DNA of 64,000 bases, from positions 24,658,197-24,722,196 of the forward strand of contig NC_133230.1 in the NCBI RefSeq assembly GCF_040436345.1, given 5' to 3'. This document shows, in pieces, positions 12,201 to 41,337 of this stretch. Positions within the stretch are counted from its first letter, which is position 1. Each line of letters opens with the position of its first letter. The notes beneath the pieces are model-generated. The model worked only from the letters and a program-made list of their open reading frames with translations. It did no database searches and was not told where the DNA came from. The position numbers and the translations under genes are program-made. This DNA is from Pagrus major. Lineage: Eukaryota > Chordata > Actinopteri > Spariformes > Sparidae.

Positions 12201-15200
12201 CTGTTGCACTGGGTAACATCTTCTATTATTACAATGAACATGGACAGTGTAGTTTATGTTGAATCAATCCCACGCCACACAACAAACCATTCCACTACTG
12301 AAAATAGTCCAAAACCAATGCATTATTTACTCATGTTTGAGGTATTTACTAAAAACTAGAGTGCCCTGCTGATTTAGGAAATTTCTGAGCATTATTTAGA
12401 GATGAAAGTATATAATCATTTTTCAGCAGCCTGTTTTGTTTCTCCAGTCGGGACAAATGTGCCCGGAGCTAAGTGAGAAACGAACTAAAACATTATTGGT
12501 TTTGGTCTTTTCATGGAATTTGTTGACAATAAGAAAAAAATATAAAATGTCACCATCCGTATCGTGTAAAGTTTGCAAATACATTTCTTGAGCACAAAAT
12601 ATGGTTTTGTTTGCTCAAATGAAATTATGTTTTGCTTGCGCATATTTTCTCTTCAAAATATAATTTATGCGCTCAAACTCTCCCATTGTTCCTTCACAAA
12701 TGTGGCACAAATATCACGCCCTATTAAACTCTTTGACACAACTCTAATGCAGGGGCAACCCCTCACACACATACAGTATGCACACAGAGCAAGTGAGAAC
12801 ATTAACAGTAACAACAGTAAGTCCCTGTAAAGATACATTTCATTCAAACACACACACAGCATTATAGTATTATACGTTTTTAAATTAACTTTGTTTAATT
12901 TTTTTAAAAGAGGGGTATTTCGGAGATTCCTTCGCGTACCACTAGAGGGAGCCCGCGTACCACCAGTGGTACATGTACCATAGTTTGAGAAAGGCAGGTG
13001 TAAACGAATGAAACCACTATTGCTGATACAATACATTTTCTTGTACATTATATTTTCTGTGGTTTCTGAGTGGTTTCAAGCCATCACCTCAGCCGACAAT
13101 TGTTGACACAGTTGACTTTTTTCTCCCATTCTGGAGAGTCCTGCTGGGTGGGCTTCTTGAAAGTCACCACTAACCCTAACCCACCCTTTTTCATTTCTTT
13201 TGAGATCAAAAACAAGCCTGTAAAATGAACTTGAGGTGAGCGTTTGTTTAAATGTTTGTTTAAATGCTACACAAATTAATATTTTACAGTAAACTGAAGC
13301 AAATTTGTTTATCCTTTATGAAGCCCCTAGTGTTGATGGACTCCCACTCAGTTGAATGTGTTGCTCTCTATCCCTGAGGATGAACTGGGACTGACAGTGG
13401 TTATGGCAGGATCTTGTTCATGGTCCACTCACCACAATACGACCCTTGGGGATAAGTGGTGGGAATTGAGGATCTGTGGTTCTGGCTCCTTGGAGGGGTT
13501 TGGCAGACCCACACCCAGTGCCTGTTAATGTAGTCAAGCCAAGCAGAAAAATCTGCATTGCCTGAGACAAGATCTCAAGGTCATTCCTTTCCTTTTCCAT
13601 GCTCTGCCTCCTAAAACCACCAACAACCAGTATTTGATGTTGACAGTGATCAGCTATGAATGTTAGTTATGCCCCCCGATTACCGCTGATTCTTTTTTTT
13701 TATCATCAAAATTGTGCTTCCCCAAATATTGCAGTTGTGCTGACGATCCTTTTGTTTGTGTTTTACCTTTTTTTCCTTGTACATTTTCAGTTTTATGCAC
13801 ATCAGCTGCTCACTCAACTTTTTCGTCCTCCTCTCTACAGAGTTGTTCATCGAGCGCTTCTGCATGACAGGGGGAAACAGCCCCATTGGCTACTTGAAGG
13901 CCTACCACACTAACCTTTACCTGTCTGCTGATCCCATCAAGGTTCGAGAAGCACTGGAGGAAGGTCAGTGCTAAAAGACAGAAGCTACATATTACTGTGA
14001 AGCTGTAACACCAGTGTAAGTTATAACATTTATTGATACACAGCTGATTTTTCAACAATTCATTCAGGCATAGCAGCAGCCACCATGTTCACCCCAGAGA
14101 AGATGACGGAAGTGTCGGAGACTCAGCTGCGTGTTGCCTTCGATGGTGACGCTGTCCTCTTTTCTGATGAGTCTGAGCGCATTTTCAAGGCCCACGGACG
14201 GGACAAGTTCTTTGAGCACGAGAAGGCGCATGAGAACATGCCTCTGGACCATGTACAGTATACATATACAGTGACATTTTTTTAATCTCACTGCTATTGG
14301 GCATGTAGTGCATTTGGTACATTCAATGAAGGGATTTTTCTGGTTTATTACAACTTGGGTCTATTGTCTTGCCTGTGACCATCATTTCTGTCACTAAGGA
14401 TTGGGGAAACATGGTGATATCCATCAGTCCATGCCATCCCCCTTTTTAATCAAAATGACCAAAATGCATCCACCTTGTTAACCTAGCTAGGGTTAAGAGT
14501 TAAGGCTTATTTATGTCCCCTTTGCGTACGAAAATATATACAACCGTTTTTGAGCAAACCTTTATTGCCCACATATTTCCAATGCATCCATCCAATGCAT
14601 CCACACCTAGAGGGCGCCGCTCAGAGTCAACTTGGTCTCTCACAGGCCTCCACTTTTCCTTTGCCACCATCCAAAGAAGCGGTCAGATGACCATACAGGC
14701 TTTTCATAAACCAGATTATCAAAAGAATTTGAATTTGAGCACATGTTGAAATATTGGCAAACATTCCTAATTAAGCAGGAAAACACTGTGCACAAGTGTA
14801 AGTACAGGAAGTCAAAGATGAACAAGAAATTTGGTCTGTAAACTCATTTTTTCCATTTGTCTTTTTTCTTTCAAATTAATTTGACTGATCTGGTGGTTTG
14901 TTTTAAACCTGTCCGAGCTTTTATTTCTCGCTACATCTTACTTCTCCTTGAAATGTCACCTCATTTCACTATCTCAGGAATCATTAGACCAATAGGAATG
15001 ATGGCTAATGCTATGACTGCAAGTTATAAGTTATAATAAAGCAGCTGCATGTACAGGAAAGTTTGTTATGAACTGAGATTCTAAAATTTGAACAAATAGA
15101 TCCACATATAAATCTAGAAGCTAACAAATGCAGCCTGTGGGCTCACTGTATTCGTCCTTCTTTCTGCAGGGGCCATTGAAGTGTTTCCTTGAGGCTTTAG

Positions 15201-15541
15201 GAAAGCTGCAGAAGAAGTTCTATAACAAAGGCCAGCGCATGGACTGCCCCATCCGGACCTACTTGGTGACAGCTCGCTCCGCAGCCAGTTCTGGTACCAG
15301 AGCCCTAAAAACTCTGCGCTCATGGGGTCTGGAGATCAATGAAGCTCTCTTTTTGGCAGGGGCACCCAAGGGCCCCGTGCTTGAGAAGATCAGGCCGCAC
15401 ATCTTCTTTGATGACCACATGTTTCACGTGGAGGGAGCAGCTGAATTAGGGACGGTAGCGTGCCACGTGCCCTATGGGATAGCTCAGACGGTCAGCAAGA
15501 AAGGAATTAAGGACAAAGAGACGTCTTCAGCACCCAAGTAG
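9254..15541 (+). CDS. nt5c1a: Cytosolic 5'-nucleotidase IA-like, six exons
   Basis: Coding exons are 9254-9391, 11193-11360, 11568-11697, 13841-13963, 14068-14252 and 15170-15541. All have GT/AG borders and compatible phases and give 371 residues, close to the usual length of vertebrate cN-IA (about 368). The family dephosphorylates cytosolic nucleoside monophosphates, mainly AMP, to nucleosides. HAD-type catalytic motifs are visible: [10 protein letters not shown] (Asp212/Asp214), LVTAR (281-284) and FFDDH (Asp329/330). The [20 protein letters not shown] stretch is strongly conserved in the family. ATG 9254 was chosen because it is the first in-frame ATG, has a purine at -3, and the short Ser/Asn-rich N-terminus leads into KPDS-PKPENA, as in cN-IA. 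The last donor (CAT|GTACAG) is weak. The paralogue cN-IB is possible, but the C-terminal half reads closer to IA. The 3' half is duplicated at 22.7-24.4 kb. Confidence 0.92.
9935..10015. repeat. LINE 3'-tail-like fragment
   Basis: The phrase TTTATTCATCCCACATTGGG followed by GAAATTCACTTGTTACAG resembles the conserved 3' tail of fish LINE families. It lies in intron 1 of the nucleotidase gene. No coding part remains. Confidence 0.45.
10078..10275. mobile_element. Small inverted-repeat element in intron 1
   Basis: The ends TTTAAAGGGGCTCTGTGTAA and TGCATAGGGCCCCTTTAA are imperfect inverted repeats about 200 bases apart with no coding content. The structure is that of a MITE. It belongs to a different family from the GTGCACTATGTAG elements, though the AAAGGGGC tip is similar. 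Confidence 0.55.
12148..12168. repeat. A-homopolymer in intron 3
   Basis: A run of about 21 A residues followed by an AT-rich stretch, inside intron 3 of the nucleotidase gene. Confidence 0.9.
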
Positions 15542-15629
15542 CCTGGACATCACTGCGCAGAGACAAAGGAAGTGGTACTCAGTGCTGTTTAAAATGCCAT
15601 ATACCACAGGAGACCTCCTGTTTATTAGA

Positions 15630-15635
15630 AATAAA
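15630..15635 (+). terminator. Poly(A) signal of nt5c1a-like gene
   Basis: AATAAA lies 89 bases after the stop codon and is kept in the duplicated copy. Other weaker signals further down could be used instead. Confidence 0.55.
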
Positions 15636-16163
15636 ACAAAGTCTTCACACTTTGAAACAATATTTATTTAGACGCCAGGTTGCTCAGCAAACTTGAAGCA
15701 GGATTTGTCAGACTTGCATGTTGTTGGTTTGCCTTTATGTATGTTGTACACGTGGTTGTTTGATCAATGTATATGAATGTAGTTTAAAATGAAGTATATT
15801 GGTAAGAAGGGAACATTTTACTTTAAATTTATATATTTATTTCTTATATCTTATAAAGATGAGTTATAACTTATTTAGCATTTATTGACATCCATCATGT
15901 GCAATTTTCACTTCTGCTACTTGTACCTGAAGTGATAAAAGTTTGGTGTCTCCCTTGTTGTTGCCTGTCTGCCTTATTTTATCATTTGGGTGTGTCGTTG
16001 TTGGTACTGTTGTTCTACTGTTCTGAGTGTGAAGTGTCTATTGAATAACACGCTTGATCAGATGTGGAATCTGGGTTAATCTTGGCCAAATGAACACTGT
16101 GGACTGTTATGCAATCAAGTTTTTGTGTTTCAAGATTGAAGTAAAGATGACTGTATTACTAAC

Positions 16164-16359
16164 TTGCTCCTGCTTCATTCATCGCAGCTGTCACTGACAC
16201 ATGAAAACAGAAAACATTACAGCTCATCTGGCTTAATCCAAGACATTTGCTTTACGGTTACTGTTAGTTCATTTAATAAAGAAAACATAAGTAGGCTATC
16301 GGTGCTTTCAAAGACATGCATTAGCATTGTCTAAGAAAGTGATACTCACAAAGTCCCAC
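16164..16359 (-). pseudogene. ISG12 5'-exon relic (exons 1-2)
   Basis: The minus-strand stretches 16164-16193 and 16350-16359 line up with exons 2 and 1 of the A-type ISG12 genes, including flanking splice sites and upstream promoter sequence. The start codon is changed (ATG to GTG at 16357-16359). Exon 2 reads TGACAGCTGCGATGAATGAA instead of the hydrophobic A-type sequence. No exon 3 or 4 follows before the end of the nucleotidase gene. It is therefore a stranded 5' remnant lying tail-to-tail with nt5c1a, and it was carried along in duplication N. Confidence 0.7.
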
Positions 16360-18177
16360 GTCATTCCTTATTCTGCTGCACCTTGAACTGGGTTTATATT
16401 CTATAGGTGAGGGTTAGGTAACATTTCTTGAGAAATGGAAAGAGGGTGTCACAGAGTCCTTATCTCCGTTGAACCTGAACTAACATTTCAAGACATGACT
16501 ATAACTGGAACACCAGAATAGAAAGCAAAGGATAGAAACACTTTAAAAGACTCTGATAAATCAGTGGACCTCGTACTTTGTAAAGACCCGTTGGCCTTTC
16601 AGTGTGACCAGCCCAAAGCACGCCTGTGCAATAATTAGGATGTTTAATCAACACTTTTATGTGACACCAGTCACCTGTCAGGTGGATGTGGTTGGATTAT
16701 CTTTGAAAAGGAGATGTGGGTTGAATCAAATTTGAATTTAAGAGGAAAAAAGTTGTTTGTGTGTACGAGCAAGTCTTTGAGTTCAACTCATGACTAGTTA
16801 TGTTCAAGCATACCACCTAAAACAGATGATTAGTAAAAAAGGTAAAAACTGAATGAAATCTGCAACTGTGACTCCAGATTTTAATTAAGCCATATCTAAT
16901 GACACCATTTTGAAGGTCTCCATCCCAATTTTTCCCAACATCAGTACGTGGTCTCCGTAGATGTAGATATTGACGTTAAAAATGCTCTGATATGTCACAT
17001 AAATAAATGATCTCAAAGGGGTCGTTTATAGTGACGAATATACAGAAAAAGTGTGTTTTAGCATCTTTCAGCTCATTGTGTTGGTTTTGCGAGTCAAGTC
17101 AATTTAATGTATAAGATACCAATTCACAACAACAGTTATTTCAAGACACTTTTTAATAAGAGCGGGTCTAGTCCCTTCACGTTACTTTACAGAGACCCAA
17201 CAATCCCCGTGAGCAAGCACTTGGTGACAGTGGTGAGGAAAATCAGCTTTTTAACAGAAAGAAACCAAGAAGCAGAAAGGATGAGCAAATTGTCTAATTT
17301 GTTTCTATGTATGTGTAAATGTCCCGACTTCTTTGGAATTGGCATTGTGGGTTACAACTTCCTTATGAGATTTTGAAGTCCAGAAATGGTTATGGATAAG
17401 CTGATAAACTGAATAGGTTACTTGATCTCAACAAATATCAGCAGTTTAGCACATTTGAAGTGACAGATTCAGCAGTTGCAGTTGCTTCTTTTTAGTTGAC
17501 TATCTTTTGTTTTCTAGCCAGGACACAATCAGGTTACACAGGAAATTAGAGACTGTTTAAATGTCATAAACCTGGCTGCTGTTATAAATAGATTGTCTAA
17601 CCAACACCCAACCTTATTTTGGAAGCATTAATGACTCATTTTAACATAGGGATTGTTTTTTACGGTGTGTGAACACAGACAATACATTAACTACAGGGAG
17701 ATTAGCTCTGACCCTATTAGCTCTTTAACACCACTTTAACAAACATGTGTAGTTGAGACCAGATATGGATAAAAGACCAGTTGTTGTGAAGAGGAAAAAG
17801 TCATTCAATTCAATAGAAAAAGTACGTGTGATGTGAAAGTGAATGTGAAAGATGTTTAATTACAATACAATCAATCTATAAAACTATCCCTGTGTGAAAC
17901 TTTGTAGCAGACTACATACGCAGTCCAGAAACATTACAAAAAAAACCAGAATGCCTTCTCTCAAATATAATGGAACTGCATCACACTTGGCTTTGGTGCT
18001 CAAAGCGTCAAAAAAATACATTTGAGAAACTCTTTCCAGAAATCATGACCTGCTTACACAAGATAATCCACAGACCTCATTGTGAACAGTTGCTCATAGT
18101 TATGACTCCTCAGCTGATGATCTACTGACTATTTACACATGACACAGTGAGCCAGCATCTTTCAGAGGCTTTAAAAG
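16360..18177. other. Spacer between relic and ISG12-A1
   Basis: No gene is seen. From about 17.1 kb the sequence is one of three copies of a shared spacer (others at about 25.93 and 35.09 kb). Near 17960-18110 it holds a degraded half of a small element with TGCCTTCTCTCAAATATAAT. Confidence 0.6.
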
Positions 18178-18183
18178 TTTATT
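18178..18183 (-). terminator. Poly(A) signal of ISG12-A1
   Basis: TTTATT on the plus strand (AATAAA on the gene strand), about 170 bases after the stop codon, in a position conserved in all A and B copies. Confidence 0.65.
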
Positions 18184-18353
18184 GCATAAAAACATTTCAG
18201 ACATTATTTTCAATTTCCTCCTTAATTTAGCAAAAAATGATTTTCAAATCAAAACAAATCAATTTTACTTAAATAGCCCAAAATCCCAATCGCATTGCCT
18301 CAGTGGGCTTTACAATCTGTAAAGTGAACGACATCCTCTGTCCTTAGACCAGA

Positions 18354-19021
18354 TCAGATGAGGAGTGCAATCAGCCCTCCTGCTGCTGCTCCAGTGCCGC
18401 CCACAGCTGCACTGACAGCTCCTGACAGTCCAGCTGCACCTACAGAAACATTGCACAGGCTTTATATCAAGGTATGGAGCTACAGCAATGATCATCTCAG
18501 CATTCAGACACAAAGCTTAAAAAAGTCATTTAATACATCAAGGAATGAATTTTACCTGCTGCCTGCAAAACAGCCACTGTACTTCCTGCTGCCACTGCTC
18601 CTCCATTAGCCACTGCTGCAGCTGACATCATGCTGGCAGCATAGGAGCCTGCTGCTATTCCAGCTGAGGTGAATCCTATGCCGGCCAGAACAAAAGGAGC
18701 CCCGACCACGGCACCTGCTGCACATTGTCAAAAGCATAGCAGAGGAAACTGTTACACCACTTCAAAATGGATCATGCTTGATATAACTTCAGTATGTAAA
18801 TGGATTTTCTACTTTAAAGTGTGTTAAAAACAACTGGAAACAACACAGATGATCCATGAAGGCTTTCCAAACACTTACTTGCTCCTGCTCCGATTAACGC
18901 AGCTGTCACTGAAACACAAGATGAAAACATTACAGCTCATTTGGTTTAGTTAAAGACAATTTGCTATGGTTACTACATTCATAGAGAAAGAGAAGGAACA
19001 GTGTTACTCACATAGCCCCAT
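18354..19021 (-). CDS. isg12: ISG12/IFI27-like protein, A-type copy 1
   Basis: Four exons on the minus strand, in transcript order: 19012-19021, 18879-18908, 18556-18717 and 18354-18439. All have GT-AG borders and every intron is in phase 1, giving 95 residues. The protein is almost wholly small and hydrophobic. The family core is in exon 3 ([23 protein letters not shown]) and the Gly/Ala-rich end (AAGLSGA to GGLIALLI-stop) is in exon 4. Members of this family (Pfam IFI6/IFI27) are interferon-induced and sit in mitochondrial, ER or nuclear-envelope membranes, where several affect apoptosis; those roles are family knowledge. The start is fixed by the 10-base first exon ATGGGGCTAT, shared by the A copies. 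A TATA-like TATATAA lies about 40 bases upstream. It is nearly identical to A2 at 36.3 kb, with one visible residue change in exon 4. Confidence 0.9.
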
Positions 19022-19104: not shown

Positions 19105-21063
19105 TTTAAGATCTAATCAAAAGAGGGCGTCACTGAGTACTTAGCTCCCTTTCAAAATAAACTTTAGTCATTAACATTTCTTGGGTGGTTTGTCATAACT
19201 ATAACTGGAAAAACAGGACAGAAACATAGGCAGAAATTAAGCACGTGTGACATGGTGATGTAGTGTGATGTCAAGAAGTCATGAATTTAAAGGTGGGGCT
19301 ACTGATGAGGCCTTTCAGGCACTTTCTGTGGGAGAGAGGAGCTCCCGCTGGCACGGACTTTGGCTTTTTAACTTTTAAGACATTTTACATGAATCATCTC
19401 AGCAACTATTGGATGGATTTTTGTATGATATTCACTTAAATGGGCACCTGAGTGAGAAGAATTCTGTACAACATGGAAAAAACCTCAGTATACATTGGCA
19501 GCAGCGCTACTTATAGGCACACATAAATATCACACAGTAAATAGTAATCACAACAGTCTGAGACAATGATGAGCTGAATGTATCACAATGCAAGGTGCAA
19601 AGATTAGACGTCTCGGAAGTAGAATTTAGTCCTTGTTGCAGCAGGAAGGCATCTTAAACCATGTTGATTTGTTGGACAACAAGCTGTAGTGCCTCCCAGA
19701 GGGCAAAAGCTGACACAAAAAGTGAGCAGGAAGGGATGGGTAAAATATCATTTTATAGGGACATCACTGCTGAGGGTCCAAGGGTCTGTCTCCTTCACAG
19801 GAAGCTCCAGATCCAGTGGATGCAGCGGCTGTTGTTCATGTGGACCGAAAGACTAATGAATGCTGAGTGGGAGAAATGTAATGAAGGAATGTTTGATTTG
19901 TACACTGACATCAATCGTTGGTCTGAGAGGGCTTCAATATCCGTCACAATGGCAGACTCTGGGTGTCTGGAGGTACAGATGAGATGAGCCTTGGAGAAAT
20001 TCCAGACTCCGTTGGTGATACTGAGAGACGACAGGGACCGAGAGTCTGTAGCTCCTGTCTACGACTACACTCCTGTACACTGTACTTTAAGTATTTGTAT
20101 AACTGAGGCCCTTTCCAGTCTATTATTTTATTCATCATTGATTATTCCACATCAAGCTGCTGCACTTAAAAAATGTTAATGAGCTTGTGAACAATTTAAT
20201 TTACTCATTCAGGCCATCTAGTGGACATGATGAGGAATGGAAGAAAAATATGTGCAGACGACACACTGAACTGTCACAGCTTTTACAGATTTATTGTTTT
20301 TATTTACTGAAAAAATATTTTAAAAATTAGATTTTTAATTCATATAAGAAGTTCATCCATGCCAGTGACAGTTTTCTAAGTCAAGTTACATTTTACAGTC
20401 TTGTGGATTTCTGTTTGTTCCCCTTCACTCTTCTTGAAAGCTACACTCTATCAAATTGGTCGATATTTACAGGTTGAAATCCAGGTCAGGTTTTGTTATA
20501 TTTCTATCTTCCTGAATACTTTGCAAGTTAGACAACGTCACTGTTTTGGGACCACCTTGCTGCCAGGTAGTAGACTCACATTGTTCAGTGAAACTGCAGG
20601 TAAGGGGCAAATTAAGATTAGCATGAGAAAAATCATTTGTTCAGCTTTTTTATTTATCCCCTTTTGTCTTTTTATTTGTTTTGGTTGCTTTTTGCTGTCA
20701 TGAAGTCTCTTAAAGGGAGAGTTCACCCCAAAATAAAAAATAGATATTTGTCCTCATACCTGCAATACTATTTGTCCATCTAGATTGTTTTGGTGGAAAT
20801 TGGGGAGTTTGGGAGGTATGGGTTATACAGATGTCTGCCTTCTCTCAAATAAAATGGAACTACATCACACTTGGCTTGGGTGCTCAAAGCGTAAAAAAAT
20901 AAATAAATACACATTTGAAAAACTCTTTCCAGAAATCATGACCCACTTACGCAAAATAATCCTTGTTGTGAGCAGTTGCTCATAGTTTTGACCCCTCAGC
21001 TGATGATCTCCCAACTATTTACACATGACACAGTGAGCCAGCATCTTTAAGCAGTTCTAAAAG
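19105..21063. other. Duplicated spacer with recurring ORF block
   Basis: No gene is recognised. The stretch from about 19.2 to 20.2 kb occurs three times (also 33.4-34.5 and 37.1-38.2 kb). It contains an open frame with WMQRLLFMW and MNAEWEKCNEGMFDLYTDIN, preceded by an acceptor-like CTCCTTCACAG. The frame is interrupted differently in each copy, which suggests old captured DNA and not a working gene. A partial element beginning TTAAAGGGAGAGTTCACCCC starts at about 20711. Confidence 0.5.
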
Positions 21064-21069
21064 TTTATT
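21064..21069 (-). terminator. Poly(A) signal of ISG12-B1
   Basis: TTTATT on the plus strand (AATAAA on the gene strand), in the same place as in the other B copies. It lies beyond the inserted repeat and the stranded old C-terminus. Confidence 0.55.
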
Positions 21070-21226
21070 GCATACAAACATTTCAGCTGTCTGACATGAC
21101 AAAGTTGCTGGTTAGTATGTGAACTGACATTATTTTCAATTTCATCCTTAATTTGGCAAAAAAAAATGACTGGCCTCAGATTTTACAATCTGTAAAGTGA
21201 ACGACATCCTCTGTCACCGACCAGAT

Positions 21227-21384
21227 TCAGATGAGTGCAACCAGCCCTCCATTGTGCATAGTTAGTACTTTTACTTTAGGTACTTTACAGTACATTTTGA
21301 GCCCAATACTTTTGTACTTTTACTTGAGTAAAAATGTATGCGTATGACTTTGACTTGTGACAGTATTTCTACACTATAGAACTG
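21227..21384 (-). other. Stranded ancestral C-terminus plus inserted repeat, B1
   Basis: On the gene strand 21251-21227 reads GGAGGGCTGGTTGCACTCAT plus CTGA, that is G-G-L-V-A-L-I-stop, the counterpart of the A-type ending GGLIALLI. It is separated from the present exon 4 by about 130 bases containing TACTTTTACTTGAGTAAAA-type sequence, typical of a widespread fish repeat. The translated frame now stops at 21385, before it. Confidence 0.7.
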
Positions 21385-22097
21385 CTATTTAAGGACAACA
21401 TCTGACACCATCAACTTAGGCTCAGCAGCTGTGTCATCATCAGGTGGGTCATCATCAGCTGGGTCATGATCATCAGCTTTTGCTTTTGCTTTTGCTTTTC
21501 CCACAAAGAGACTAGTCAGCCACCCCAATGCTCCTCCAGTGCCAGCCACAGCTGTAGTGGCAGTTGCCGACAGACCAGCTGCACCTACAGCAAGATTACA
21601 CTGGTTTAATATCAAGGTATGAAGCTACAGAAAAGCTGAGAAATAAATAAATAAATAACTAGGCTAAAAACAAGGACACTACAATGTCCATTATTGTTGT
21701 CTGTAGTGTGCATGTCCTGTCATTTTATAGCTGCATGTATTGTGATTTGTTCTGCGTGTCTGACAAACCTGTGAAGACGAAGGCAAATTTCCACATTATG
21801 GATAATAAAGATTATTATTGTTAAATGAATGAGTGGCACTATTATACGCAGTGGTTCCATCATAGTCATACTTAACAATGGATTGTAACCAAAAGCTACA
21901 AATCTGTTATGACAAGAAGATGAAACGGCTTTTATCTGCTGACTGCAAGACAGCCACAGCACTTCCAGCTGCCACTCCTCCTCCGTTAGCAATCGCAGCA
22001 GCCGACATCATTTTAGCAGCGATGGAGCCTGCTGCTATTCCAGCTGAGGTGAAACCTGCAGCGCCCAGAGCCAAAGGAGCCCCGACCACGGCAACTA
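21385..22097 (-). pseudogene. ISG12 B-type copy 1, truncated and splice-broken
   Basis: Only exons 3 (21936-22097) and 4 (21385-21584) remain. Exons 1 and 2 are missing because duplication N copy 2 begins at 22163. In addition the exon 3 donor, GTAAAA in B2 and B3, is ATAAAA here (plus strand TTTTAT at 21930-21935). The remaining reading frame is intact, with core [20 protein letters not shown] and a B-type charged tail (KAKAKAKA, then DDHDPADDDPPDDD). It could give a product only through a new promoter and a cryptic donor, so it is called a pseudogene. Exon 4 has one KA unit more than the sister copies. Confidence 0.85.
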
Positions 22098-22675
22098 CTG
22101 CACATGGATAAGAACAGAATCAGAGGAAACTTTTCTAAATCAAAGTGTGCTAATTTGTTGGGTAGTGTTGATGGACTCCCACTCAGTTGAATGTGTTGCT
22201 CTCTATCCCTGAGGATGAACTGGGACTGACAGTGGTTATGGCAGGATCTTGTTCATGGTCCACTCACCACAATACGACCCTTGGGGATAAGTGGTGGGAA
22301 TTGAGGATCTGTGGTTCTGGCTCCTTGGAGGGGTTTGGCAGACCCACACCCAGTGCCTGCTAATGTAGTCAAGCCAAGCAGAAAAATCTGCATTGCCTGA
22401 GACAAGATCTCAAGGTCATTCCTTTCCTTTTCCATGCTCTGCCTCCTAAAACCACCAACAACCAGTATTTGATGTTGACAGTGATCAGCTATGAATGTTA
22501 GTTATGCCCCCCGATTACCCCTGATTCTTTTTTCTTATCATCAAAATTGTGCTTCCCCAAATATTGCAGTCCTCCTGACGATCCTTTTGTTTGTGTTTTA
22601 CCTTTTTTTCCTTGTACATTTTCAGTTTTATGCACATCAGCTGCTCACTCAACTTTTTCGTCCTCCTCTCTACAG

Positions 22676-24376
22676 AGTTGTTCATCGAGCGCTTCTGCAT
22701 GACAGGGGGAAACAGCCCCATTGGCTACTTGAAGGCTTACCACACTAACCTTTACCTGTCTGCTGATCCCATCAAGGTTCGAGAAGCACTGGAGGAAGGT
22801 CAGTGCTAAAAGACAGAAGCTACATATTACTGTGAAGCTGTAACACCAGCGTAATGAAGCAAAAGTTGGCGTCTCTGCTGCATATGTAACATGTATTGAT
22901 ACACAGCTGATTTTTCAACAATCCATTCAGGCATAGCAGCAGCCACCATGTTCACCCCAGAGAAGATGACGGAAGTGTCGGAGACTCAGCTGCGTGTTGC
23001 CTTCGATGGTGACACTGTCCTCTTCTCTGATGAGTCTGAGCGCATTTTCAAGGCCCACGGACGGGATCAAGTTGTTTGAGCACGAGAAGGCGCATGAGAA
23101 CATGCCTCTGGACCATGTACAGTATACATATACAGTGACAATTTTTTAATCTCACTGCTATTGGGCATGTAGTACATTTGGTACATTCAATGAAGGGATT
23201 TTTCTGGTTTATTACAACTTGGGTCTATTGTCTTACCTGTGACCATCATTTCTGTCACTAAGGATTGGGGAAACATGGTGATATCCATCAGTCCATGCCA
23301 TCCCCCTTTTTAATCAAAATGACATCCACCTTGTTAACCTAGCTAGGGTTAAGAGTTTATTTATGCTCCCTTCACGTACGAAAATAGATACATCCGTTTC
23401 GAGCAAACCTTTATTGCCCACATATTTCCAATGCATCCATTCCTAGAGGGCGCCGCTCAGAGTCAACTTGGTCTCACACGGACCTCCACTTTTCCTTTGC
23501 CACCATCCAAAGAAGCGGTCAGATGACCAGACAGGCTTTTCATAAACCAGATTATCAAAAGAATTTGAATTTGAGCACATGTTGAAATATTGGCAAACAT
23601 TCCTAATTAAGCAGGAAAACACTGTGCACAAGTGTAAGTACAGGAAGTCAAAGATGAACAAGAAATTTGGTCTGTAAACTCATTTTTTCCATTTGTTTTT
23701 TTCTTTCAAATTAATTTGACTGATCTAGTGGTTTGTTTTAAACCTGTCCGAGCTTTTATTTCTCGCAACATCTGACTTCTCCTTGAAATGTCACCTCATT
23801 TCCCCATCTCAGGAATCATTAGACCAATAGGAATGATGGCTAATGCTATGACTGCAAGTTATAAGTTATAATAAAGCAGCTGCATATACAGGAAAGTTTG
23901 TTATGAACTGAGATTCTAAAATTCGAACAAATAGAGCCACATATAAATCTAGAAGCTAACAAATGCAGCCTGTGGGCTCACTGTATTCGTCCTTCTTTCT
24001 GCAGGGGCCATTGAAGTGTTTCCTTGAGGCTTTAGGAAAGCTGCAGAAGAAGTTCTATAACAAAGGCCAGCGCATGGACTGCCCCATCCGGACCTACTTG
24101 GTGACGGCTCGCTCCGCAGCCAGTTCTGGTACCAGAGCCCTAAAAACTCTGCGCTCATGGGGTCTGGAGATCAACGAAGCTCTCTTTTTGGCAGGGGCAC
24201 CCAAAGGCCCCGTGCTTGAGAAGATCAGGCCGCACATCTTCTTTGATGACCACATGTTTCACGTGGAGGGAGCAGCTGAATTAGGGACGGTAGCGTGCCA
24301 CGTGCCCTATGGGATAGCTCAGACGGTCAGCAAGAAAGGAATTAAGGACAAAGAGACGTCTTCAGCACCCAAGTAG
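22676..24376 (+). pseudogene. Partial nt5c1a pseudogene (exons 4-6)
   Basis: Exons 4 (22676-22798), 5 (22931-23116) and 6 (24005-24376) are copied with their splice sites. Exon 5 has one extra base near 23066, and the shifted frame meets TGA at 23077-23079. Exons 1-3 are absent. Exon 6 remains fully open (with motifs LVTAR and FFDDH), showing little decay since duplication. No upstream promoter of the original gene came along. It may be transcribed in part, but it cannot encode the catalytic domain: the DGD motif is upstream of the break and VTAR/FFDD are downstream. Confidence 0.92.
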
Positions 24377-24998
24377 CCTGGACATCACTGCGCAGAGACA
24401 AGGGAAGTGGTACTCAGTGCTGTTTAAAATGCCATATACCACAGGAGACCTCCTGTTTATTAGAAATAAAACAAAGTCTTCACACTTTGAAACAATATTT
24501 ATTTAGACGCCAGGTTGCTCAGCAAACTTGAAGCAGGATTTGTCTGACTTGCATGTTGTTGGTTTGCCTTTATGTATGTTGTACACGTGGTTGTTTGATC
24601 AATGTATATGAATGTAGTTTAAAATGAAGTATATTGGTAAGAAGGGAACATTTTACTTTAAATTGATATATTTATTTCTTATATCTTATAAAGATGAGTT
24701 ATAACTTATTTAGCATTTACTGACATCCATCATGTGCAATTTTCACTTCTGCTACTTGTACCTGAAGTGATAAAAGTTTGGTGTCTCCCTTGTTGTTGCC
24801 TGTCTGCCTTATTTTATCATTTGGGTGTGTCGTTGTTGGTACTGTTGTTCTACTGTTCTGAGTGTGAAGTGTCTATTGAATAACACGCTTGATCAGATGT
24901 GGAATCTGGGTTAATCTTGGCCAAATGAACACTGTGGACTGTTATGCAATCAAGTTTTTGTGTTTCAAGATTGAAGTAAAGATGACTGTATTACTAAC

Positions 24999-25194
24999 TT
25001 GCTCCTGCTTCATTCATCGCAGCTGTCACTGACACATGAAAACAGAAAACATTACAGCTCATCTGGCTTAATCCAAGACATTTGCTTTACGGTTACTGTT
25101 AGTTCATTTAATAAAGAAAACATAAGTAGGCTATCGGTGCTTTCAAAGACATGCATTAGCATTGTCTAAGAAAGTGATACTCACAAAGTCCCAC
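24999..25194 (-). pseudogene. ISG12 5'-exon relic, duplicated copy
   Basis: Same relic as at 16164-16359, carried by duplication N: exon 2-like 24999-25028 and exon 1-like 25185-25194, with the same ATG to GTG change. The defect therefore predates the duplication. Confidence 0.68.
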
Positions 25195-26899
25195 GTCATT
25201 CCTTTTTCTGCTGCACCTTGAACTGGGTTTATGTCCTATAGGTGAGGGTTAGATAACATTTCTTGAGAAATTGAAAGAGGGTGTCACAGAGTCCTTATCT
25301 CCGTTGAACCTCAATGAACTCAACTAACATTTCAAGACATGACTATAACTGGAACACCAGAATAGAAAGCAAAAGATAGAAACACTTTAAAAGACACTGA
25401 TAAATCAGTGGACCTCGTACTTTGTAAAGACCCGTTGGCCTTTCATTGTGACCAGCCCAAAGCACGCCTGTGCAATAATTAGGATGTTTAATCAACACTT
25501 TTATGTGACACAGGTCACCTGTCAGGTGGATGTGGTTGGATTATCTTTGAAAAGGAGATGTGGGTTGAATCAAATTTGAATTTAAGAGGAAAAAAGTTGC
25601 TTGTGTGTACGAGAAAGTCTTTGAGTTCAACTCATGACTAGTTATGTTCAAGCATACCACCTAAAACAGATGATTAGTAAAAAAGGTAAAAACTGAATGA
25701 TATCTGCAACTGTGACTCCAGATTTTAATTAAGCCATATCTAATGACACCATTTTGAAGTTCTCCATCCCAATTTTTCCCAACATCAGTATGTGGTCTCC
25801 CTCTGGACAGATGTTGACGTTAAAGATGCTCTGATATGTCACATAGACAAATGATCTCAAAGGGGTCGTTTATAGTGACGAATATACAGAAAAAGTGTGT
25901 TTTAGCATCTTTCAGCTCATTGTGTTGGTTTTGCGAGTCAAGTCAATTTAATGTATAAGATACCAATTCACAACAACAGTTATTTCATGACACTTTTTAA
26001 TTAGAGTGGGTCTAGTCCCTTCACGTTACTTTAGAGACCCAACAATCCCCGTGAGCAAGCACTTGGTGACAGTGGTGAGGAAAATCAGCTTTTTAACAGA
26101 AAGAAACCAAGAAGCAGAAAGGATGAGCAAATTGTCTAATTTAATTCTATGTATGTGTAAATGCATTGTGGGTTACAACTTCCTTATGAGATTTTGAAGT
26201 CCAGAAATGGTTATGGATAAGCTGATAAACTGAATAGGTTACTTGATCTCAACAAATATCAGCAGTTTAGCACATTTGAAGTGACAGATTCAGCAGTTGC
26301 AGTTGCTTCTTTTTAGTTGACTATCTTTTGTTTTCTAGCCAGAACACAATCAGGTTATACAGGAAATTAGAGACTGTGTTTAAATGTCATAAACCTGGCT
26401 GCTGTTATAAATAGATGTCTAACCAACACCCAACCTTATTTTGGAAGCATTAATGACTCATTTTAACATAGGGATTGTTTTTTACGGTGTGTGAAGACAG
26501 ACAATACATTAACTACAGGGAGATTAGCTCTGACCCTATTAGCTCTTTAACACCACAGAACAAACATGTGTAGTTGAGACCAGATATGGATAAAAGACCA
26601 GTTGTTGTGAAGAGGAAAAAGTCATTCAATTAAATAGAAAAAGTACGTGTGATGTGAAAGTGAATGTGAAAGATGTTTAATTACAATACAATCAATCTAT
26701 AAAACTATCCCTGTGTGAAACTTTGTAGCAGACTACATACGCAGTCCAGAAACATTACCAAAAAACCTGACCTGCTTACACAAGATAATCCACAGACCTC
26801 GTTGTGAACAGTTGCTCATAGTTTTGACCCCTCAGTTGATGATCTCCCAACTATTTACACATGACACAGTGAGCCAGCATCTTTAAGCGGTTCTAAAAG
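25195..26899. other. Duplicated spacer, no gene
   Basis: Copy of the 16.36-17.95 kb spacer. Beyond about 26763 is the A/B flank junction. Nothing coding is supported. Confidence 0.6.
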
Positions 26900-27060: not shown

Positions 27061-27218
27061 TCAGATGAGTGCAACCAGCCCTCCATTGTGCATAGTTAGT
27101 ACTTTTACTTTAGGTACTTTACAGTACATTTTGAGCCCAATACTTTTGTACTTTTACTTGAGTAAAAATGTATGCGTATGACTTTGACTTGTGACAGTAT
27201 TCCTACACTATAGAACTG
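27061..27218 (-). other. Stranded ancestral C-terminus plus inserted repeat, B2
   Basis: As in B1, the gene strand at 27084-27061 reads G-G-L-V-A-L-I-stop after the TACTTTTACTTGAGTAAAA-type insert and lies in the 3' UTR of the present gene. Confidence 0.7.
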
Positions 27219-30200
27219 CTATTTAAGGACAACATCTGACACCGTCAACATAGGCTCAGCAGGTGGGTCATCATCAGGTGAGTCATCATCAGCTGGGTCA
27301 TCATCATCAGCTTTTGCTTTTGCTTTTCCCAAAAAGAGACTAGTCAGCCACCCCAATGCTCCTCCAGTGCCAGCCACAGCTGTAGTGGCAGTTGCCGACA
27401 GACCAGCTGCACCTACAGCAAGATTACACTGGTTTAATATCAAGGTATGAAGCTACAGAAAAGCTGAGAAATAAAGAAATAAAAAACTAGGCTAAAAACT
27501 AGGACACTGGAACAATGTCCATTATTGTTGTCTGTAGTGTGCATGTCCTGTCATTTTATAGCTGCATGTATTGTGATTTGTTCTGCGCGTCTGACAAATC
27601 TGTGAAGACGAAGGCAAATTTCCACATTATGGATCATAAAGATTATTATTGTTAAATGAATGAGTGGCACTATTATACTCAGTGGTGTCATCATAGTCTA
27701 CCTAAACAATGGACTGTAACCAAAAGCTACAAATCTGTTATGACAAGTAGAAGAAACAGCTTTTACCTGCTGACTGCAAGACAGCCACAACACTTCCAGC
27801 TGCCACTCCTCCTCCGTTAGCAATCGCAGCAGCCGACATCATATTAGCAGCGATGGAGCCTGCTGCTATCCCAGCTGAGGTGAAACCTGCAGCGCCCAGA
27901 GCCAAAGGAGCCCCGACCACGGCAACTACTGCACATGGAAAAGAACAGAATCAGAGAAAACTTTTCTAAATCAAAGTGTGCTAATTTGTTGGGTCACTTT
28001 AAAATTGATCATGTATGATCTAAGTTTAACATAGAAATGTTTTTTTTACATTTACAAAAAAAAAAAAGGTGCACTACTTCATTTTGGGGAAGAAATTATA
28101 ATCAACAGAGAAAGATCATCATTAATTGATTTTTTTTAAATGCCTAAATAAACAAATTGTCTTCATTTCCTTGACTGAATAAACAAACTGATGTTAAAAA
28201 GGACAACACAATTTCATACTGTTTTACTTTGTATTTGGCGGACCCTGCCACCTTTCTAGCTTCAAACAGTGTTCTGGAGACCTTATTGTCTTTCGTTCAG
28301 TTTGTTCAGTTATGGAAAAAGAAATATTTCTGAGTTTGTATCATCACCTCAGTAATATCGTAAATATTAAAACTCTGAGTTTGAATTTCTTCTCCAAAAC
28401 TAGATAGTGCCCCTTTAAAGTGTGTTAAAATCAGCTGAAAAAGTAAACAGGTAACACTTCATTTTAAAAAAGGTTCACAAGTTTCATGGTAAGTAGGTGG
28501 TAACTAATAAGTGACATTTGAAATTACCACAAAAAAGACAACAACAACAACAAAAAAATAAAATAATAATAATAACAACAACAATAATAATAATCTCATA
28601 CTTTTGCATAAAAAGTTAATAGCAGGTAATTTCTTTAATGTTTTTCCAAGACACTTCCAACTGGTTTCTGCTTAACTTCCCCTCAGCAGGCCACTAAACT
28701 GAAGTAAATTTTTGCAGCTGAATTTCCAACCACTTTACTGTAGTTCCAACTTCTGAAAGTCAGTAAATCGAAGTACATTCTCACCAGTTTCTATCACTTC
28801 AGCAGATCAGTCCAGCTTTGAAACATTTCTCCTAAATGTCAAATCTTTATATAGTTATACACCATAAATTGCTTATTACGACAATGGCTTAATAATCAGA
28901 ATCAAGTGGCTAACTTCCCATTTTTAAAAGTTTCATTCCTTCATTTCTTTTATACAACACAAATGAAGAACAGGCAAACTTAACAGAACAGCAGGATTGA
29001 GGAGACACAACAGACAAAGATTGAACTAAAGACTGCACAACACGTAGATCCGACCGAGCAATCTGATTGGTCAATCAGACATTATAGACTGTGCTCAAAT
29101 GAGCATCACAGCACAGCTAGCCGTGCTCAAATGAAAAAGTGCCTCATCACTGAAAATATCACTCCGCCTGTATTTTAAACTACACAGGAGCAGCTAGCAA
29201 GAAACACAGCTAGCTAACGATGGAGCTAAAACGGCTGTATTGACCTGACACAAAATGGATCATTTTGCTGTTAATTTTGATCTATAAAGGAATAATAAGA
29301 AAGAGACTAAAAGAAAAAAGCTAAGAATACCATTCTTAAAACTGCATTCTAAAAGGTCCTTAAAAAATAAATAAATAAATAAAACAAACAACCTAAAATC
29401 TGAGTAAAATGCCAGAAATTACTAATAAAAAGGAGTTTAGAAGAAGGATAAGAAGAAATCAATTAAAAGCCAAGTTAAAAAGGTGTGTCTTGAGCGTGCT
29501 TTTAAAAACATCAACAGTCTCTGCGGCCCTGAGGCTCTCCGGCAGGCCATTCCACAGACGTGGGCCGTAGTAATAAAAGGATGCCTCACCGCGGGTTTTT
29601 GTCCGAACACTTGGGATGACTAAAAAGTTGGAGCCGGAGGACCTCAGGGTCCGCGAGGGTTGGTAATGTAAAAACAAATCAGATAGATAAGAAGGCCCAA
29701 GACCGTTAAGACACTTAAAAACAAACATTGTCTTTCATGACACATTGTGAGGTTTAAAGTCTTGTAGTTTGGGTAAAAGTTTCTCTCTCTTGGCTTCAGG
29801 ACCAATGATTAAAACTTCTGTTTTGTCCCGGTTGAGCTGCAGGAAATTCTCTGCCATCCATGATTTTATATCTAAAATGCAGTTAAGAAGAATGTCAACT
29901 GGCCTCGTGTCTTCAGGCTAATATTTTCACCTTGTGGTATAGCAGTACAGTAGAAGAACAGTAAGATTAATAAAGCTATTGTAGCCTATGCAGAATAAGC
30001 AGAAGTAATAAATATTTAGATGTAAGAGACGATGTAGTAAATGTCGCCTAAAAATGGATCATATAAACTATCAAATTGCTGATTAATGAAAGCAGTATAA
30101 CTGTCAATCATTGTAGATAAAGATCAGCTGTGCTGCTGAGTCATTGACGCGGCACCTGCTACCGTAACGTTACTAGCTTAAAATGACTGTAAAGTCGGCA

Positions 30201-34560: not shown

Positions 34561-35090
34561 CAGATGACACACTGAACTGTCACAGCTTTTACAGATTTAC
34601 TGCGAAAAACATTTCAGCCATCTGACATGATGAAAGTGCTGTTTAGTAAGCAAACTGATATTATTTGGAATAAACTCCTACACTGGGCACAGGTAGAAAT
34701 ATTGTTCATTCATCTTCTTCCTTCAACCTAGTTGTCCCAGGGGAAAATTTGTCTTATAGCCAGGTTAAACATTACAAAATATTTAAAAAGGCTGACATGA
34801 ACACATCAAGTGACAACTGATACCCTGAAGTATGTTTAACCATCACTAAGAGGCTAAGACTCAGTGGTGGAGACTAATTCAAGTACTGCACTTAAGTACA
34901 ATTTTGAGATGTTAGTTCTTTACTTAAGTATTTCCACGTTTTGCTATACTTTATACATCTACTTCACAACCCTTCCAACCAAATATGGTACTTTTTTACT
35001 CTATTTCATTTATTTGATAAACCACATCTATACACCAATAATTACAATCCAATTATATAATAAATATATTATACTCTGAAAAAATGCCAG
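34561..35090. repeat. Spacer with fish TACTTAAGTA-type repeat
   Basis: At about 34863-35000 the sequence CAGTGGTGGAGACTAATTC followed by AAGTACTGCACTTAAGTAC is a full-orientation example of the repeat whose relative was inserted in exon 4 of the B-type ISG12 genes. Confidence 0.6.
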
Positions 35091-39179: not shown

Positions 39180-39337
39180 TCAGATGAGTGCAACCAGCCC
39201 TCCATTGTGCATAGTTAGTACTTTTACTTTAGGTACTTTACAGTACATTTTGAGCCCAATACTTTTGTACTTTTACTTGAATAAAAATGTATGCGTATGA
39301 CTTTGACTTGTGACAGTATTTCTACACTATAGAACTG
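39180..39337 (-). other. Stranded ancestral C-terminus plus inserted repeat, B3
   Basis: The gene strand at 39203-39180 reads G-G-L-V-A-L-I-stop, separated from the present stop codon by the same inserted repeat as in B1 and B2. Confidence 0.7.
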
Positions 39338-41337
39338 CTATTTAAGGACAAGATCTGACACCGTCAACATAGGCTCAGCAGCTGTGTCATCATCAGGTGG
39401 GTCATCTTTAGGTGGGTCATCTTCATCAGCTTTTGCTTTTGCTTTTCCCACAAAGAGACTAGTCAGCCACCCCAATGCTCCTCCAGTGCCAGCCACAGCT
39501 GTAGTGGCAGTTGCCGACAGACCAGCTGCACCTACAGCAAGATTACACTGGTTTAATATCAAGGTATGAAGCTACAGAAAAGCTGAGAAATAAAAAAAAA
39601 AATAACTAGGCTAAAAACTAGGACACTGGAACAATGTCCATTATTGTTGTCTGTAGTGTGCATGTCCTGTCATTTTATAGCTGCATGTATTGTGATTTGT
39701 TATGCGCGTCTGACAAACCTGTGAAGACGAAGGCAAATTTCCACATTATGGACAATAAAGATTATTATTGTTAAATGAATGAGTGGCACTATTATACGCA
39801 GTGGTGTCATCATAGTCTACCTAAACAATGGACTGTAACCAAAAGCTACAAATCTGTTATGACAAGTAGATGAAACGGCTTTTACCTGCTGACTGCAAGA
39901 CAGCCACAGCACTTCCAGCTGCCACTCCTCCTCCGTTAGCAATCGCTGCAGCCGACATCATTTTAGCAGCGATGGAGCCTGCTGCTATTCCAGCTGAGGT
40001 GAAACCTGCAGCGCCCAGAGCCAAAGGAGCCCCGACCACGGCAACTACTGCACATGGAAAAGAACAGAATCAGAGGAAACTTTTCTAAATCAAAGTGTGC
40101 TAATTTGTTGGGTCACTTTAAAATTGATCATGTATGATCTAAGTTTAACATAGAAATGTTTTTTTTTACATAAAAAAAAGTGCACTACTTCATTTTGGGG
40201 AAGAAATTATAATCAGCAGAGAAAGATCATCATTAATTGATTTTTTTTAAAATGCCTAAATAAACAAATTGTCTTCATTTCCTTGACTGAATAAACAAAC
40301 TGATGTTAAAAAGGACAACACAATTTCATACTGTTTTACTTTGTATTTGGCGGACCCTGCCACCTTTCTAGCTTCAAACAGTGTTCTGGAGACCTTATTG
40401 TCTTTTGTTCAGTTTGTTCAGTTATGGAAAAAAGAAATATTTCTGAGTTTGTATCATCACCTCAGTAATATTGTATATGTAATAATCTCCTATTTTTGTT
40501 TAAGAAGTTAATAGCAGGTAATTTCTTTAATGCATTTCCAAGAGACTTCCAACTGGTTTCTGCTTAACTTCCCCTCAGCAGGTCACTAAACTGAAGTAAG
40601 TTGTTGCAGCTTAATTTCCAACTTCTGAAAGTCAGTAAATTGAAGTACATTTCTTAACTATTTACATTCACTTCAGCAGATCAGTCCAGCTTTGAAACAT
40701 TTCTCCTAAATGTAAAATCTTTATATAGTTATCCACCATAAACTGCTAATTATGACAAATACAACTTAATAATCAGAATCAAGTGACTAACTTCCCATTT
40801 TAAAAGTTACATTCCTTAATTTCTTTTATACAACACAAATGAAGAACAGGCAAACTAAACAGAACAGCAGGATTGAGGAGACACAACAGACAAAGATTGA
40901 ACTAAAGACTGGACTTAAATACAAACTACACTAACGAGGGGATGAGGTGCAGGTGGAGTGTGGCGGAGAAACGCCGGTGAGTTTAAGAAATGGAGGAAAC
41001 AAAAGAACAGCAGGAAAAGAGAAGGTGTGGAGGTAAAGTCAGGCTGAAGAGGAGCACAGGAGGGAAACCGAACACCGGACAACACTGTGACACCTACATG
41101 CCATGACATTTCTGGACCTGTGATATGAAGTGTTACCAGCAAACACAGCTGATCCATTAAGACTTAACAAAGACTTACCTGCCCCTCCTGCAATGAGGGC
41201 AACTGTCCCTGAAACACAAGATCAAAATCTAAATCAACATTTACTGCTCATCTGGTTCATTTATTAGTAAAGTATAAGTACTTCCACAGAAATGTATCAG
41301 TATCATCACAAGACCAGCGTTACTCACCAGGCTTCAT
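39338..41337 (-). CDS. isg12: ISG12/IFI27-like protein, B-type copy 3
   Basis: Exons in transcript order are 41328-41337, 41179-41208, 39886-40047 and 39338-39531, with GT-AG borders and phase 1 introns, giving 131 residues. Start exon is ATGAAGCCTG. Exon 3 has the family core ([20 protein letters not shown]). Exon 4 has [12 protein letters not shown], then WLTSLFVG, then the B-type tail (KAKAKA, DEDDPPKDDPPDDD, ending SDLVLK). The tail differs from B1 and B2 in its acidic repeat. A TATA-like CTTTATATAG lies at 41376-41385, but the ISRE-like site is eroded (GAGAAATTAAACT). Intron 2 (1.1 kb) carries a truncated MITE shared with B2. Confidence 0.88.
40176..40480. mobile_element. MITE family 1, truncated copy in intron 2 of B3
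   Basis: Same insertion as 28064-28418. It starts at AAAGTGCACTACTTCATTTT but loses its right terminal repeat at about 40480, where the sequence jumps to TAATAATCTCC. Confidence 0.7.

Follow-up and report, generated by a model that had tools for sequence, protein, structure and literature searches.

Organization of the ISG12 array

The window that we analysed is a 64,000-nucleotide stretch of Pagrus major contig NC_133230.1. On its minus strand lie ISG12 genes in the order C, B3, A2, B2, B1 and A1 (Table 1), and all three types exceed the curated cut-off of 29.1 bits for the Ifi-6-16 domain PF06140 (B 97.4, A 83.5 and C 87.5 bits), scores that were taken from typed proteins in which the start of B1 is hypothetical. 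The B2 translation is identical, letter for letter, to P0001, a predicted Pagrus major protein of 134 residues, and the start of P0001 guided the choice of B2 exons 1 and 2. Besides the array, the plus strand has 5'-nucleotidase domains at 11.5, 14.0, 15.1 and 22.6 kb, and galectin-type domains lie at 50.7 and 52.4 kb. ISRE-like motifs (GTTTCGTTTCTC) are predicted upstream of B2 (31144) and of C (44170), both on the minus strand; the counterpart in B3 is GTTTAATTTCTC.

An earlier note on this DNA had counted three B genes. In two of them, B2 and B3, the frame is complete and the splice sites are GT/AG, whereas B1, the copy cited in that note, is probably not a working gene. It looks broken because its exon-3 donor begins with AT (ATAAAA, as against GTAAAA or GTAAAC in the other five genes) and because its own exons 1 and 2 are missing. 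From 22163 upstream, the sequence of B1 is a copy of 13328-17944 (96.2% identity). The segment duplicated between 22163-26765 and 13328-17944 is 4.6 kb long and contains 5'-nucleotidase exons, and it also carries an A-like exon 1-2 remnant at 25.0-25.2 kb, with a second copy near 16.17 kb. This duplication removed the first exons that belonged to B1.

Table 1. Positions of the ISG12 genes and of the parts of the B copies within the window
Feature	Position	Strand	Remarks
C gene	44124-42714	-	untailed; ends GYLASFFR
B3 gene	41337-39338	-	exons 41337-41328, 41208-41179, 40047-39886, 39531-39338; frame intact
A2 gene	36980-36313	-	C-terminal GGLIALLI
B2 gene	31058-27219	-	exons 31058-31049, 30889-30851, 27928-27767, 27412-27219; frame intact
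B1 remnant	22097-21385	-	exons 3 and 4 only
A1 gene	19021-18354	-	C-terminal GGLIALLI
B1 exon 3	21936-22097	-	donor ATAAAA
B1 exon 4 body	21505-21584	-	acceptor GTAG before 21584; ends in hydrophobic GWLTSLF
B1 charged C-terminal extension	21388-21504	-	39 residues in B1
6-bp tandem repeat	21476-21499	-	4 copies; codes KA repeat (Tandem Repeats Finder)
15-bp tandem repeat	21422-21472	-	3.4 copies; codes A/P-D-D-D-P (Tandem Repeats Finder)
Dispersed-repeat piece in B1	21249-21405	+	profile E 4e-39; model 242-399; envelope 21244-21425
Dispersed-repeat piece in B2	27083-27239	+	profile E 1.5e-37
Dispersed-repeat piece in B3	39202-39358	+	profile E 6.9e-39
GGLVALI-TGA behind B1 stop	21227-21250	-	A1 homology starts at 21250
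GGLVALI-TGA behind B2	27061-27084	-	A-class ending
GGLVALI-TGA behind B3	39180-39203	-	A-class ending
A-class 3' UTR and flank behind B1	20978-21226	-	AATAAA at 21069-21064
Opposite (left) end of repeat family	34858-35080	+	CAGTGGTGG from 34862

The charged tail

In all three B copies, as the earlier note had observed, exon 4 closes with a charged C-terminal tail that is rich in Lys/Ala and then in Asp/Pro. The note had also linked this tail to the insertion of a dispersed repeat. A repeat does supply its final six codons (SDVVLK) and the TAG stop (21385-21387), but not its bulk (KAKA/DDDP), which is built of in-frame 6-bp and 15-bp tandem repeats outside the repeat-family match. The profile match ends at 21405 and thus takes in no more than the stop and about six codons, and we rejected the idea that the tail is copied repeat-element DNA. 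In B1 the envelope of the match ends at 21425, so that the repeat could extend some 20 bases deeper into the tail at most.

The tail is confined to these genes in the searches that we made. Its DNA has three matches in the 785.9-Mb assembly (25 contigs), namely B1, B2 and B3, in a search that skipped simple repeats. A protein-database search with the tail end, which depends on shared five-residue words, gave four candidates and one match, P0001 itself. Outside the array, the protein search of the genome turned up a single ISG12-like gene, on contig 10, whose exon-4-like frame ends without such a tail, and among the 46 stretches of viral contigs that fitted the pattern of the B protein there was no relative. 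Hydrophilic or charged tails as such are ordinary in the family. By a simple rule they are present in 54 of 159 rows, and the basic-then-acidic order is present in 29 of the 159, mostly mammals; these are the rows of the ending survey described below (167) minus eight that were left out.

Of the 36 residues of the B2 tail, 4 are Lys/Arg and 12 are Asp/Glu. In the AlphaFold model of P0001, which is of low confidence (mean pLDDT 71, pTM 0.32), long helices extend to residue 107 and are followed by coil, except for a short helix at 129-133. The B product would be an otherwise ordinary membrane protein of the Ifi-6-16 family that carries an acidic and probably disordered tail at its C-terminus.

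A truncated end of a dispersed repeat

The DNA behind the tail is indeed a dispersed repeat, which the note had thought it to resemble. The B repeat piece has 206 candidates in the genome, and of the 40 that were scored, 37 lie outside the B copies and three are the B copies themselves. The 19-base motif given in the note occurs 39 times in the genome, against 0 for its reversed control. The family profile was seeded by one copy (L028) in an iterated search over 27 loci; few copies extend into the last third of the profile, which is probably flank. We compared 35 repeat loci, which correspond to 34 places (L047 and L052 are the identical place) and of which 27 also fed the profile. At least 20 further model positions beyond the point where the B piece stops are present in 28 of the 35. 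Since these loci continue past the position of the A junction, the element is cut there in B.

The note had further pointed to a forward relative at 34.86 kb. A family link exists, as this piece matches 22 of the 35 loci, but it probably concerns the opposite end of the element. Twelve of the matches are in the same orientation and at most 40 bases from the start of the family match, three are reversed and the rest lie elsewhere. The link between 34.86 kb and the B piece came from these genome copies. The direct alignment of the two is barely above shuffled sequence (equalled by 3 and by 2 of 500 shuffles), and we rejected the 34.86-kb repeat as sufficient proof of the family. Our reading of the sequence at 34.86 kb is that it forms the other end of the same element family.

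An end motif of the CAG-N-GGTG type is found near the match end in 9 of the 35 loci, as CCACCNCTG in six, CCACCATTG in L047/L052 (one place) and CCACCTTTG in L008. Both ends of one copy could be paired loosely in L008 and nowhere else. Among the 35 loci, no 8-bp target-site duplication had a partner with at most one mismatch, and L008 alone had one with two mismatches. The subterminal motif AAGT occurs eight times in the 146 bases of the B piece, where its excess is weak (44 of 1000 shuffles reach this count), and eight times in 34862-35010, where it is clearer (6 of 1000). The element in B is the truncated end of a dispersed element that we call hAT/Tol2-like rather than a proven hAT. A 21-mer of the repeat had 0 matches in viral contigs and three in prokaryote genomes, in named prokaryote bins, and we found no mention in the literature of a 17-mer from the repeat end.

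A second, A-class ending

Behind each B copy, the TAG is followed by 134 bases and then by GGLVALI-TGA, in agreement with the distance of about 130 bases that had been noted before. The stretch scanned behind each copy contains one AATAAA (B1 21069, B2 26905, B3 39024), so that GGLVALI would lie in the B 3' UTR. The similarity to the A genes extends well beyond the heptapeptide. A1 17952-18380 and B1 20836-21250 are 75.7% identical over 448 columns, far beyond chance, and the 3' ends of A1 and the B copies are identical in 197-198 of 263 columns. In the genome, 20836-21250 finds whole-length matches in A1, A2, B1 and B3 and a match from position 91 on in B2, and the remaining places match just its first ~150 bases (40 of 769 candidates scored). 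By this homology, GGLVALI and its 3' flank are a second, A-class exon-4 end. The portion at 20836-20978 is another dispersed repeat, common to the A and B 3' flanks; elsewhere it is mostly 70-82% identical over up to ~150 bases, again among the 40 scored of 769 candidates.

The retained ending of the B genes

The earlier note took GGLVALI for the original ending of the B genes and held that a repeat insertion had swapped the C-terminus. Neither point is supported, and nor is an insertion that split exon 4. At the same codons, in register, A has GGLIALL, C has GYLASFF and B has GWLTSLF, directly before its tail; GGLVALI and its 3' flank belong to the A class, with an identity of about 75% to A1/A2. 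Among other fish, GW-L-x-S endings are widespread, and untailed relatives close with GWLTSFFR (Zoarces), GWLASFFG (Lates), GWLASSIF (Cheilinus) and GWLASRFF (Paralichthys). The outgroup heptamers GWLTSFF and GWLTSLI match GWLTSLF at 6 of 7 residues, a level reached in 1 of 100,000 draws of seven random codons with equal base composition. From this comparison, GWLTSLF is B's own hydrophobic ending, still within the protein, with the tail added behind it. Since B's own ending is retained, the C-terminus was extended, not swapped.

We surveyed the endings of 217 proteins, of which 50 were off-pattern and left out, giving 167 rows. The class-II ending, G-W/Y-L-x-S-x-x after the final hydrophobic segment, is present in B1-B3 and C, and 50 of the 167 rows received this label under a rule that also takes in P0017, in which the ending is unreadable, and a number of tetrapod endings. 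A tree was then made from the core alone, with endings removed (72 columns, 49 rows, 21 open forks); its rows were chosen as fish, P0016, P0021 and P0054 by guess. B2 and B3 group with Sparus P0017 (97/83). Lates, Zoarces and Cheilinus join next (85/72, open) and then Paralichthys (86/81), and every row of this seven-row group is labelled II, P0017 among them. A1 lies in a separate group (97/88). On this tree the class-II label needs 9 changes and class I needs 5, and 0 of 500 shuffles were as low for either. The two classes are not fully discrete, since GW and ALI endings are mixed in a few fish proteins, such as Cottoperca GWLTAILI and Etheostoma GWLAAIII. The tailed form looks derived, as the note had assumed; its relatives in the tree are untailed where the ending is readable.

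At the DNA level, B exon 3 is nearer to C (139-142 of 162 positions) than to A (132-135 of 162). The first 81 bases of exon 4 do not separate the parents (B-C 62/81, B-A1 59/81, A1-C 61/81). The 5' ends of the B genes are slightly more A-like (A1-B2 175/255, B2-C 163/272), so that a second breakpoint is possible.

Some further observations concern the endings. The stretch 19512-19832, between B1 and A1, is a decayed class-II exon-4 end with 3' UTR, of which a second copy lies near 37.5 kb. Its alignment to the C gene scores 172 (shuffle maximum 60), and its exon part alone is weak against C, being matched by 3 of 500 shuffles. We read the Sparus protein P0017 as what looks like a misjoined gene model with its own ending unreadable. 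The ends of P0017 (Sparus aurata) and P0097 (Xyrichtys novacula) resemble out-of-frame exons of the next ISG12 gene, and both are probably chimeric gene models across tandem neighbours. P0131, an IFI27L2A-like protein named as from the prawn Macrobrachium rosenbergii, was found together with fish A-type proteins, which may reflect contamination or mislabelling.

Variation among the B copies

The three B copies are near-identical recent duplicates, and we therefore regard their structure as the result of one event, not three. Among them 11 of 110 tail columns vary, and every change alters the amino acid. The exon-4 body has 1 variable column in 84, the repeat UTR has 2 in 134 and the A-type UTR, counted over ungapped columns, has 3 in 189; against these three regions pooled (6/407) the tail stands out (Fisher p = 0.0001). 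Intron 3 varies at 21 of 351 positions, which is not significantly below the tail (p = 0.19). No synonymous change occurs among the 11 variable tail codons, a weak signal with a chance of 0.063 if changes are random. The tail has a single length change, which keeps the frame, and none of the three copies has gained a stop. We rejected positive selection on the tail as a firm claim on the grounds of the intron and the synonymous count. By these counts the tail is unconstrained or fast-changing, and selection is not established.

Proposed origin and alternatives

We consider it quite likely that the B genes are a chimera made inside the tandem ISG12/IFI27L2A array, with a class-II core, a tail that grew in place and an A-type 3' end. 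By protein comparison, exons 3 and 4 derive from the class that ends in GWLxSF. The old stop behind this ending would have been lost, and the frame would have run on. The tail consists mostly of the 6-bp and 15-bp in-frame repeats, which presumably grew by slippage, and it terminates at a stop inside the truncated end of the hAT/Tol2-like element. At the broken inner edge of this element lie the A-class exon-4 end, 3' UTR, predicted poly(A) signal and flank, which were presumably joined by non-homologous recombination or by deletion between neighbouring genes. The junction in B reads AATGG-AGGGCTGG; at this point AATGG stands in the repeat model and GGAGGGCTG in the A genes. Only GG is common to both, so that the join looks non-homologous. 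The simplest course would be a deletion in the array by which a class-II gene, with the repeat already behind it, became fused to the 3' portion of a gene of type A, and B would then use an A-type 3' end.

It is a serious possibility, although not the one that we would expect, that the tail is a neutral run-on without function and that the B copies are decaying duplicates. B1 fits this with its missing splice donor and first exons, and so does a tail variation not significantly above that of intron 3. However, B2 and B3 keep complete frames with GT/AG sites, the only length change in the tail preserves the frame, all three copies are free of stops and, as a weak point, none of the 11 variable codons is synonymous. 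Possible but rather unlikely, in our view, is gene conversion, in which B is sister to A in its backbone, comprising promoter, 3' flank and exons 1-2, whereas its core, comprising exons 3-4 with the tail and the repeat, was converted from a class-II gene through two breakpoints, leaving the A ending stranded. The informative sites shift in this direction. In the 5' part, those shared by A and B outnumber those shared by B and C by 37:23 (B2) and 37:21 (B3), while in exons 3 and 4 the sites shared by B and C are favoured by 25:15 (B2) and 25:16 (B3), a change of pattern with Fisher p = 0.025 and 0.024, respectively. A and B also have a common 3' flank, including the dispersed repeat copy at ~20836-20978. 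Yet each half alone is barely or not significant (binomial p 0.048 to 0.31), and homologous conversion aligns endings in register and would not keep both.

We regard as very improbable the model of the earlier note, in which the repeat entered an A-type exon 4, became the tail and pushed the original ending into the 3' UTR. It accounts for the repeat between the tail and the A ending, which supplies the stop and six codons, and for a tail that occurs in no protein but P0001 and nowhere else in the genome. Against it, an in-register ending of B's own precedes the tail, the B core stands apart from A in the tree, most of the tail is outside the repeat match and the element is truncated on its A side. 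Least of all do we believe in an assembly or annotation artefact that mis-joined A and C reads. Near-identical tandem units are difficult to assemble, and P0001 may stem from the same assembly, in which case it gives no independent support, but the join is common to three copies that have copy-specific differences.

Under the chimeric origin that we favour, one can read in the B genes how a short, hydrophobic protein of antiviral type came to have a long charged tail, by way of a stop run-on, repeat growth, a stop from a mobile element and a neighbour-type 3' end. It also suggests caution, since gene models in ISG12 arrays may be run-on or chimeric. A bolder scenario, which we put forward as speculation and hold to be improbable, is that the acidic tail evolved in the red sea bream lineage and is fast-changing, like the separately evolved tails of mammals, took its stop from a transposon and its 3' UTR from a neighbour, is under positive selection, gives B a new partner and belongs to a counterpart of the nodavirus locus.

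Comparison with known systems

The B cluster shares the domain (PF06140) and the 4-exon structure of fish ISG12/IFI27L2A genes. In the titles and abstract openings, largely of open literature, that we searched for teleost ISG12/IFI27, Pagrus major IFI27 and, among the best 20 matches, zebrafish ISG12 paralogues, we found no description of a tailed ISG12 with a second ending. The same search found no literature on ISG12 with gene conversion, and for IFI27L2A with a transposable element it found mouse only.

Fusion genes arise between tandem neighbours. As in such fusions, in B the body of one gene is joined to a neighbour-type 3' end. B differs in the position of the join, which falls after the stop codon, and the neighbour's ending would therefore be untranslated. 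Mammalian and avian IFI27L2-type proteins have, like B, a basic and then an acidic stretch behind the final hydrophobic segment. The sequence of their tails differs from that of B, and their origin was probably separate.

Among hAT elements, Tol2 and Hermes have AAGT repeats close to their ends (PMC10368747). The repeat family seen in B resembles such elements and their non-autonomous copies in its CAGTGGTGG / CCACCNCTG ends and has AAGT-type motifs near the ends, although their excess is weak in the B piece; B itself carries only a truncated 157-bp piece.

The closest comparison is the IFI27L2A cluster of European sea bass at the VNN-resistance QTL, which has galectin-type and 5'-nucleotidase-type flanks and is the main nodavirus-resistance QTL (PMC11899128). 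The Pagrus array lies between the same flanking gene types. The KA/DDDP tail of 36-38 residues, the repeat-derived stop and the second A-class ending are features of B that are not described for sea bass in the sections consulted (PMC11899128). Since the sea bass cluster with the same flanks holds the main nodavirus QTL (PMC11899128), the B copies with their tails, present in a farmed sparid, offer a concrete candidate on which function could be compared.
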